From positions 1 to 64,000 of the forward strand of contig JANQGG010000055.1 of assembly GCA_028277445.1 (NCBI GenBank): DNA of 64,000 nucleotides, in the 5' to 3' direction. The stretch is from Chloroherpetonaceae bacterium. GTDB taxonomy: Bacteria > Bacteroidota > Chlorobiia > Chlorobiales > Chloroherpetonaceae. The notes beneath the pieces are model-generated. The model did not search any database. It saw nothing but the letters and a program-made list of their open reading frames with translations, and was not told the DNA's origin. Shown here in pieces: positions 21,233-57,368 of the stretch. How positions within the stretch are numbered: position 1 is the first letter of the stretch; each line of letters opens with the position of its first letter. The position numbers and the translations under genes were made by a program.

Positions 21233-21251
21233 GATTTTATTATTGTTACTG

Positions 21252-21400
21252 CCTGTTTGTTTTTTTGACTATTCACGCCAAAAATTTGCTCTCGCGATGA
21301 TGCACGAGTACAGCTTTAACAAAGGGTTGCAACCCCTTGTTTTCGAAGCCACCTCCGCTAGCGTTGGATAAAACACGTCATACCTATTTTTATCATTAAC
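21252..21400 (-). repeat. Palindrome-centred dispersed repeat, copy 1 (inverted)
   Basis: Its centre (21318-21341) is a 24-base palindrome with one mismatch relative to the perfect copy at 56580. To the right, GCTTCGAAAACAAGG (minus strand) matches that copy, and to the left a 41-base stretch (21252-21292) matches 56312-56352 in inverse orientation at 36 of 41 positions. Confidence 0.75.
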
Positions 21401-21734
21401 TCGTGATAACGTTCCGTTAGTCGTTTATCATGTCAATTCTCTCAATCATTGCTTTTTCTGACTTTCCGTTTTACAATCCTAAATCGTATGAACGTCTTAA
21501 CCGTTTAAATCGATTGATTTCTTAACCAATTGCTTCGGAAAGAAACTTTGAAAATACAAAATCATGTGCTTAATCCCCTTTACAGTAGATGCTTTTTTCT
21601 TGCAAAATCCTTTTTATTTCATGATAAATGTTGATAGATTAACGGTTACCAAAAAACGGATGTGCTTTAGATTTGGCTAAGCCTTCATAGAAGAATGGCA
21701 TTCCTGTTATTAAAACGCTTAACGAAAGAATACC

Positions 21735-32688: not shown

Positions 32689-32701
32689 CTTTGTTTTTTA
32701 C

Positions 32702-32808
32702 CACCAAAAAGACAAACAGGTAATGAGGTGTCATCCGCTGGCGGATTTAGCTCAAAAACAAGCGGTTGCAAACCCTTGTTATAGATGATATTCATGCGTC
32801 ATTGGAAA
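32702..32808 (+). repeat. Palindrome-centred dispersed repeat, copy 2
   Basis: Centre at 32757-32780 (the 24-base palindrome with two changes, symmetric in effect: G to C on one arm, C to A on the other). It shares GACAAACAGGTAATGA at the left end and GATGATATTCATGCGTCATT at the right end with copies near 56 kb. Confidence 0.75.
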
Positions 32809-32818
32809 TCCATATAAG

Positions 32819-32844
32819 GTCATTCCGAACTTGTTTCGGAATCT
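32819..32844 (+). repeat. REP-like hairpin, GTCA type
   Basis: GTC, then an 8-bp stem ATTCCGAA / TTCGGAAT with loop CTTGT, then CT. It lies within a 39-base block (32808-32846) repeated perfectly and inverted at 40040-40078. Confidence 0.85.
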
Positions 32845-32882
32845 ATATATGTACACGGAATCTTTTCTTTTTTTACCTGTTA

Positions 32883-39988: not shown

Positions 39989-40041
39989 AAAAACAATGTT
40001 CTCAGGCAAGACAACGGGTAAAAAAGATACAGTGATATAAT

Positions 40042-40067
40042 AGATTCCGAAACAAGTTCGGAATGAC
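40042..40067 (-). repeat. REP-like hairpin, GTCA type (inverted copy)
   Basis: Exact reverse complement of the 32819-32844 hairpin, inside a 39-base perfect match (40040-40078 versus 32808-32846). Confidence 0.85.
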
Positions 40068-40220
40068 CTTATATGGATGATTTTATTATGTCATTAACTT
40101 ATTTTATTTGGCCTGTCCAAATAATTAGTTCAGCATGGCTTTCTGTTTAACACGTCATTACCTGTTCGTTTATTTTTAAATATTTAAACTTGCAAATGTC
40201 ACTATAAGTCTTAGTATTTC

Positions 40221-56043: not shown

Positions 56044-56218
56044 AAATTCAATATTGCATAAACTTTGATAAGACCTTAAACTTAAGGGATAATCCATGAA
56101 AATCCTTACATAAAAATGGATTACTTAAACCATTCGCGTTTTTAACCTAATTTCAAAGCTCAAATTGGGATTTAGCATTTACTTTTTAATAGGACATTAC
56201 AACTCTGGCATTTTGAAA

Positions 56219-56352
56219 GTCAAAAACACAAATGGTTAATGACGAGTTCTTATCCCAAGCTGGCAGTGATGACTTGTTGCAACCCCTTGTTAATAATAAT
56301 GAGTCATTAACAGAGCAAATTTTTGGCGGTGATGGTCAAAAAAACAAACTGG
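56219..56352 (+). repeat. Palindrome-centred dispersed repeat, copy 3 (decayed)
   Basis: It keeps the right half of the palindrome (GTTGCAACCCCTTGTTA near 56276-56292), but the left arm is shortened. It shares GTCAAAAACACAAATGG and GACGAGTTCTTATCCC at the left and a 41-base tail (56312-56352) with copy 1 at 21252-21292. Confidence 0.7.
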
Positions 56353-56516: not shown

Positions 56517-56526
56517 TTTCATATTT

Positions 56527-56631
56527 GTCAATAAACAAATAAAGTATTCTTATCCCACCCATGCAGTGATGGCTTCGAAAACAAGGGGTTGCAACCCCTT
56601 GTTATAGATGATACTCATGCGTCATTGGAAA
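56527..56631 (+). repeat. Palindrome-centred dispersed repeat, copy 4 (best)
   Basis: The centre at 56580-56603 is a perfect 24-base palindrome, AACAAGGGGTTG and its reverse complement. The left arm TTCTTATCCCACCC...GGCTTCGAA and the right arm ATAGATGATACTCATGCG are shared with copies 1-3. Confidence 0.85.
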
Positions 56632-56650
56632 CGCCTGGAAGGCGTGTGAC
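56631..56650 (-). repeat. Short GTCA-type hairpin
   Basis: ACGCCT and AGGCGT pair around GGA; on the minus strand it opens with GTCACACGCC. It adjoins copy 4 of the palindrome-centred repeat. Confidence 0.55.
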
Positions 56651-56669: not shown

Positions 56670-56701
56670 GATTGCTTCTTCGCTGCGCTCATCGCAATGA
56701 C
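56670..56701 (-). repeat. REP-like element, GTCATTGCGA type
   Basis: On the minus strand GTCATTGCGATGAGCGC, then CGAAGAAGCAATC: the arms ATTGC and GCAAT, GCG and CGC pair imperfectly. This sequence style is a common REP class in other bacteria. Confidence 0.65.
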
Positions 56702-56771
56702 CTTTAAAAAAGAATCCGCTTAATTTTATATTTTAAATTAGCCCTGTTAATGAAGATTCAATAAACAATAA

Positions 56772-57368
56772 ATGCCGGTAAAATTTCGCCGTAAGAAAAA
56801 CCGCCTGCCTATCCCTGAAATTTATCGTTCAAATCATTCATATTTTGTGACGGTCTGTGTAAAAGGGAGAGCTTGTTGCTTGTCTGACATTTACAAAGGG
56901 AGGATAAATCCTTCCCCTACGGGTGAAATTGTTGAACATTCCTGGATTTCAATGGTGGATTTGGTTCGTGGTATTTCTATTGAGGAATTTGTAATAATGC
57001 CAAACCATTTTCACGGCATAATCACATTTTTACACGAACCCGCCTTACGCTCCAATGGCAAAAAGATTAATCTCTCCGAAATCATAAGAATGTTCAAAGC
57101 ACGATCAAAAAGATTGAACGATAAAAACCTGAACTCCACCCCAAAAAAACAACCCAATGTAGAGGAACGATTTATCGTCCATGAAAAACAATTATATACC
57201 CCATTTCAATGGCAAAAATCATTTTACGACCATGTCATTCGCAATGAACAAGATTATGCAAGAATTCAAAGCTATATTATAAATAACCCGGTTCGTTGGG
57301 AAATGGACATGTTTCATCCAAAAAACGAAGAGAAATATCAGAAATGGGCCATTGCGAATAAATCTTAA
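56772..57368 (+). CDS. REP-associated tyrosine transposase (RAYT, Y1/HUH family)
   Basis: 198 residues, a single-domain IS200-like transposase. The HUH metal motif is present as MPNHFHGII (His79, His81). The N-terminal RSNHSYFVTVCVKGR stretch, with the FxT pattern, and the C-terminal FYDHVIRNEQDYARIQSYI, followed by NNPVRW, are typical of RAYT proteins, the last including the candidate nucleophile Tyr (which of Tyr152, 162 or 168 cannot be settled by eye). RAYTs act on REP hairpins without forming an insertion sequence of their own, and indeed no inverted repeats or target duplications flank it. Its 5' side is packed with REP-like hairpins; none lies downstream. The gene appears intact. Confidence 0.88.
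   Translation: MPVKFRRKKNRLPIPEIYRSNHSYFVTVCVKGRACCLSDIYKGRINPSPTGEIVEHSWISMVDLVRGISIEEFVIMPNHFHGIITFLHEPALRSNGKKINLSEIIRMFKARSKRLNDKNLNSTPKKQPNVEERFIVHEKQLYTPFQWQKSFYDHVIRNEQDYARIQSYIINNPVRWEMDMFHPKNEEKYQKWAIANKS

Follow-up and report, generated by a model that had tools for sequence, protein, structure and literature searches.

Short palindromes that are dispersed through bacterial genomes, lie mostly outside genes, and flank the gene of a cognate Y1 enzyme are described for the REP/REPIN–RAYT (TnpA_REP) systems in the excerpts of PMC6006769 and PMC8266576 drawn on here. According to these excerpts, the Y1 enzymes TnpA and TnpA_REP recognize a hairpin on single-stranded DNA and cut nearby, and REP-associated tyrosine transposases (RAYTs) of subclass 2.4, with the signature NHFH, WQ, and YIINNP, can carry in-frame REP insertions within the transposase gene (PMC6006769). 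Three other systems bear comparison: the CGTC-tagged REPs excerpted from PMC3733652, which combine CGTC words in an inverted arrangement and count Bacteroidetes among their hosts; the IS200/IS605 elements, such as IS608 and ISDra2; and the Rickettsia palindromic elements (RPEs), which, in the excerpt of PMC10969869, lie in frame within unrelated genes.

The repeat analyzed here, from a 64,000-nucleotide stretch of a Chloroherpetonaceae genome (the window), shares with REP/RAYT systems a short, dispersed, mostly extragenic palindrome that flanks a Y1 gene in other genomes, and with RAYT subclass 2.4 the presence of in-frame copies within the transposase gene. It differs from REP/RAYT systems in that the palindrome is perfect, the hairpin foot bears neither a GTAG nor a CGTC tag, and the Y1 domain is lodged in methyltransferases. 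The CGTC words and their inverted arrangement are those of CGTC-tagged REPs, but here CGTC faces outward and is separated from the hairpin foot by ~16 bases, a placement at odds with the form excerpted from PMC3733652.

The repeat unit and its genomic family

The original prediction described four copies of a dispersed repeat with a 24-base palindromic center. The palindrome, AACAAGGGGTTGCAACCCCTTGTT, lies exactly where it had been placed, with zero mismatches at 56580, one at 21318, and two at 32757 (three matches, against 0.00 expected from shuffled sequence). All four copies were matched by a profile of the common unit at E-values of 1e-12 to 1e-28; reversed sequence searched with this profile gave no match at E<1e-3. 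The features of the window are as follows.

21244–21292: repeat module adjoining copy 1 (inverted repeats I1 and I3)
21290–21401, minus strand: copy 1, with the palindrome at 21318–21341 (one mismatch; profile match 21288–21401, E 1.9e-26; inverted repeats I1 and I3)
32702–32808, plus strand: copy 2, with the palindrome at 32757–32780 (two mismatches; profile match 32698–32814, E 5.2e-25)
56219–56352, plus strand: copy 3, degenerate (profile match 56216–56315, E 1.1e-12; inverted repeat I3)
56527–56631, plus strand: copy 4, a unit of ~105 bases (profile match 56524–56637, E 2.7e-28)
56580–56603, no strand: the perfect 24-base palindrome AACAAGGGGTTGCAACCCCTTGTT (10-bp stem, TGCA loop, folding z −5.0)
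56604–56626, plus strand: ATAGATGATACTCATGCGTCATT, the conserved right arm, whose last bases are the joint word CGTCATT (88% mean consensus identity among aligned units)
56670–56702, minus strand: CGTC-type REP hairpin GTCATTGCGATGAGCGCAGCGAAGAAGCAATC, a neighboring mosaic module (from sequence, form as in the PMC3733652 excerpt, and module survey)
56772–57368, plus strand: RAYT gene (NF047646, E 2.4e-18, under the curated cut-off)

Copy 3 retains only half of the palindrome (TTGCAACCCCTTGTT, 56277–56291), and its sequence past ~56315 belongs to a neighboring repeat module and not to the unit.

The family extends well beyond these four copies; that no others should exist, which the prediction had named as grounds for abandoning it, is false. 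The core has 55 sites at two or fewer mismatches in the 3.42-Mb genome, of which 42 are exact (reversed pattern, 0), and the right-arm sequence TACTCATGCGTCATT has 40 sites at the same tolerance. With 24 bp and 55 core copies, the palindrome has the size and abundance of REPs (palindromes of 20–40 bp, many, dispersed, and mainly extragenic). A 775-kb sample, comprising the window and stretches chosen without regard to the repeat, holds 16–17 units by profile, which extrapolates to ~70 per genome. In about 46 of 51 copies the common unit consists of AATGACG, a variable stretch of ~45 bases, GTGGCTTCGAA, the palindrome, and ATAGCTGATACTCATGCGTCATT; several copies have a different left arm or none. 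Identity to the consensus in aligned units is 70% for the left arm, 88% for the right arm, and 99.3% for the core, the last figure being inflated because copies were partly found through the core. By our reading of the profile matches, stretches chosen without the core hold about 10 perfect cores among 16, and a core-masked model recovered mostly perfect cores together with a few decayed ones (AACAACAGGTTGCAACTCCTTGTT, AACAATAGGCTGCAACCCCTTGTT, AACAAGGAGTAGCAATCCTTTGTT). Degenerate cores of this genome show no compensating changes, which suggests either that the sequence itself, and not mere symmetry, is kept or that, as far as the core is concerned, the copies are recent.

The consensus bases preceding the hairpin are TTCGAA on one strand and AGCTAT on the other. 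In the unit consensus the hairpin foot carries no GT[AG]G tag, nor does a CGTC directly abut an 8–9 bp stem. An Rfam search of the window returned no family match. By eye, no target-site duplications were apparent in the aligned unit flanks.

The units and other small repeats form a BIME-type mosaic. Of 51 units, 45 have one or more of ten further repeat modules in their vicinity, compared with 7 of 200 random places, a count that is descriptive only because the ten modules were picked from unit flanks, and CGTCATT/AATGACG words are enriched 20-fold within 300 bases of units. One such module, GGTCATTCCGAACTTGTTTCGGAATC, recurs beside units and forms a perfect 39-base inverted repeat in the window (32808–32846 and 40040–40078). 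By our count, about a dozen contig ends fall within ~500 bases of a palindrome copy, indicating that the assembly breaks at these repeats. The contigs concerned are C2, C9, C13, C17, C26, C41, C42, C49, C55, C61, C67, and C69; the ends of C9 and C17 overlap in sequence, as do those of C42 and C55.

The palindrome and a Y1 transposase subfamily in other genomes

An exact 18-mer of the core was found in none of 60 related genomes. The exact 22-mer is present in at least 104 contig stretches from genomes of bacterial and archaeal species, where we estimate that ~0.02 would be expected at random; viral contigs contribute another 22 stretches. Its hosts include Ignavibacteria, other Chlorobiota, Bacteroidales, Balneolia, Syntrophaceae, Nitrospirae, Gastranaerophilales, Spirochaetia, Chloroflexota, and others, with phylum assignments that come mostly from MAGs. 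These other genomes carry 1 to 15 copies (reversed control, 0), and among genomes from many phyla the flanks are unrelated. Neither the unit arms nor the CGTCATT ends were seen accompanying the palindrome elsewhere, and the amplifier of the composite may therefore be another enzyme. By simple ORF gene calls, the palindromes of other genomes lie between 42 tandem, 16 convergent, and 3 divergent gene pairs. No text containing the palindrome sequence was found among open-access papers.

Several further observations concern these occurrences. In four Ignavibacteria-type genomes (L092, L093, L123, and L141) the palindrome holds a constant position next to a DnaG-like primase gene. In phage-like contigs (L180–L201) it lies between genes, for example in the order stop codon, palindrome, ribosome site. 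At least one of the MAG-based names (L108), which has a phage-like stretch in common with Smithella, may reflect a binning error. A second palindrome, with the core ACAAGGGAGCATGCTCCCTTGT (NKGACSLV), lies near the first in two genomes (L111, L116, L120, and L155). Two sets of matches were set aside: the general class AACAAGGG-N8-CCCTTGTT in viral contigs, which is mixed and includes many that look like ordinary looped hairpins, and coding matches such as the 22-mer at the same place within a methylmalonyl-CoA mutase gene of two genomes (L083:2547 and L124:6455), which may represent native codons or an old insertion.

Clustering of palindrome-adjacent proteins revealed a methyltransferase group with an inserted HUH/Y1 domain that ends in NKGLQPLV, the translated palindrome. 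The Y1 subfamily is defined by the motifs HVTWVTHNxR, DHVH, WAQKY, and YIxxNRxKH, its HUH and Tyr motifs are invariant or nearly so, and its signature (DHVH, WAQKY, YIxxNRxKH) fits none of the RAYT subclasses in the tabulation excerpted from PMC6006769. All five of the first members match PF01797 (54.4 bits, against a cut-off of 23; Y1_Tnp E 1.7e-14); the first scores 54.9 bits against the RAYT model NF047646, under its curated cut-off of 80. The predicted structure (pLDDT 83.5) matches IS200/IS605 TnpA and TnpA_REP 4ER8.

Strong matches to an alignment of the subfamily (A1) occur in 14 of 47 palindrome genomes, with one gene per genome. When the five seed genomes are left out, the proportion is 9 of 42, and within the window's phylum it is 4 of 394 genomes (p 1.7e-7); this comparison alone is not proof because the two sets come from different phyla. 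No gene of the subfamily was detected in the Chloroherpetonaceae assembly at E≤1e-3, and the viral contigs yielded no confirmed member.

The association also holds at the level of single loci. Sought as CAAGG-N10-CCTTG with at most one mismatched pair, the palindrome, in its original or a co-varying version, lies within 1.5 kb of 16 of the 18 strong Y1 loci, flanking or interrupting the gene, so that in other genomes it flanks its transposase gene in the manner of a REP. By the same test, none of 26 other (canonical) RAYT loci from genomes that bear the palindrome has one, nor does any of 16 weakly related loci; two apparent exceptions to these counts (L341 and L343) are Y1 genes themselves. 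Four Y1 loci that were found without the palindrome (L374–L377) all carry it, and in their genomes it is nearly confined to the Y1 locus. The locus variants differ yet stay paired (GGGGTTGCAACCCC, GGAGTTGCAACTCC, GGGAGCATGCTCCC, GGGGGCATGCCCCC, GGGGATTAATCCCC, and GGGGTTTAAACCCC), with CAAGG/CCTTG constant among them because they were sought that way. Within a set restricted to four or fewer unpaired positions of 13, pair 11–16 occurs in all four Watson–Crick types and is paired in 33 of 33 cases. Within the order to which the window belongs, one relative (G008) carries the methyltransferase form of Y1 together with the palindrome AACAAGGGGTTTAAACCCCTTGTT.

Some members stand alone. The Smithella Y1 gene has a palindrome on each side and an array of half palindromes, and at three stand-alone loci (L345, L350, and L351), from three lineages, the span from palindrome to palindrome is ~640 bases. 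This palindrome–gene–palindrome arrangement and the Y1 fold recall IS200/IS605 elements; in contrast to these, each genome here has a single strong Y1 match, and the palindromes have spread alone too. In Smithella (L118:768–1457 / L345:1950–2120), tandem half palindromes (GATTGCAACCCCTTGTTCTAC) lie upstream of the Y1 gene, by an integrase-like remnant. Since it is found next to as well as within the gene of a small transposase of single-stranded DNA, the palindrome has the appearance of a tiny hitch-hiking element.

Y1 domains and palindromes within coding sequence

The Y1 domain is inserted in frame in Eco57I-type methyltransferases at L344/L170, L346/L090, L347/L150, L348/L148, L355, and L374–L377, and L354 and L356 have the same arrangement. 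In several phyla the insertion point lies between an FPxVF stretch and GGFDVVIGNPPY, just before the NPPY motif, and in Pfam searches the Eco57I match is split into two stretches, accompanied by a Y1_Tnp match. A tree built from the 18 Y1 domains (4 changes) is poorly resolved and compatible with either a single or a multiple methyltransferase origin. The methyltransferase ORF at L356:1–3303 contains some seven additional peptides encoded in frame by palindromes of this kind (TRGFIPLS, NKGLKPLA, NKGACPLA, and others).

All frames of the palindrome are free of stop codons, and in other genomes it is translated as NKGLQPLV, EQGVATPCS, or TRGCNPLF. Its in-frame position within unrelated genes is reminiscent of RPEs; however, RPEs are ~150 bp long and have no transposase named in the PMC10969869 excerpt, whereas the present element is 24 bp long and has a candidate enzyme. 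The view of the repeat as a mobile-type, structured, non-coding element is supported by its many copies, its mosaic setting, a hairpin with z = −5, and its association elsewhere with a transposase subfamily, with the qualification that other genomes use the palindrome as coding sequence. It is possible, rather than probable, that the palindromic element is adapted to coding sequence and that, with Y1 in frame in Eco57I methyltransferases, methyltransferase, transposase, and REP form one unit across phyla, in which the methyltransferase might control cutting.

Origin and mover of the repeat

We consider it likely that the core is an untagged REP of the Y1 subfamily that was captured in a composite element and is now orphaned in the Chloroherpetonaceae genome. 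The palindrome would have originated as a REP-like DNA partner of this HUH/Y1 single-strand transposase subfamily of other bacteria. By analogy with IS200/IS605 TnpA and TnpA_REP, from which the role of the hairpin is taken, the enzyme would recognize the hairpin when the DNA is single-stranded (on the lagging strand), nick alongside it, and paste copies elsewhere. The palindrome would then have become the center of a ~105-base composite with AATGACG/CGTCATT ends, which may have spread together with other small repeats into mosaic, BIME-like intergenic clusters. The copies are called orphans because no such Y1 was found in an assembly that breaks at repeats; the enzyme may have been lost or may be hidden in assembly gaps.

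The original prediction proposed the RAYT beside copies 3 and 4 as the mover. This gene encodes NHFH, WQ, and YIINNP, the subclass 2.4 signature, and has a single relative at E<1e-20 in 60 kin genomes. If the composite were a CGTC-tagged REP/BIME moved by one of the genome's own RAYTs, such as this one, with the palindrome an inert passenger, the CGTCATT/AATGACG words at both unit ends and at module joints, and their enrichment near units, would be explained, as would the CGTC REP and two unit copies directly upstream of the gene. Nothing similar lies downstream, however, and no units occur within ~1.5 kb of the seven other RAYT-like matches in the genome; one RAYT neighbor among several is weak evidence for a mover. 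Because these seven matches and the 26 canonical RAYT loci elsewhere lack the palindrome, the window RAYT is not supported as the mover, and the palindrome probably has a different cognate enzyme. A passenger, moreover, would be expected to degenerate as the arms have, yet conservation of the core is much higher; CGTC REPs are reported without an associated transposase in the excerpt of PMC3733652; and in other genomes the palindrome accompanies a different Y1. We regard movement by a RAYT of this genome as unlikely.

It is less probable still that the palindrome is the site of a dimeric DNA-binding protein, or a transcription or RNA hairpin signal, selected at each place. The perfect dyad and its strict conservation would suit such a role, and so would the scarcity of divergent gene pairs and the position kept by the primase-like gene, but a site of this kind does not account for a palindrome that is embedded in a repeated mosaic, lies in frame within unrelated coding genes, and is tied to Y1 loci where it is nearly single-copy, nor does the window match an Rfam family. 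Short inverted ends and many copies would also fit a MITE that a DDE transposase mobilizes by way of its AATGACG/CGTCATT ends. This we hold to be very improbable: the left ends are variable and several copies lack the usual left arm, the aligned flanks show no target duplication by eye, and incidental inspection turned up no DDE transposase bearing ends of this type.

On the preferred reading, an untagged palindromic repeat is tied to a specific Y1 subfamily by association and compensated variation, which offers a test of how minimal palindromes move. For the long-standing question, posed in Rickettsia, of how palindromic elements enter genes in frame, it provides a candidate mechanism with a nameable enzyme. 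For a transposase, residence in frame within a restriction-modification methyltransferase would be remarkable.
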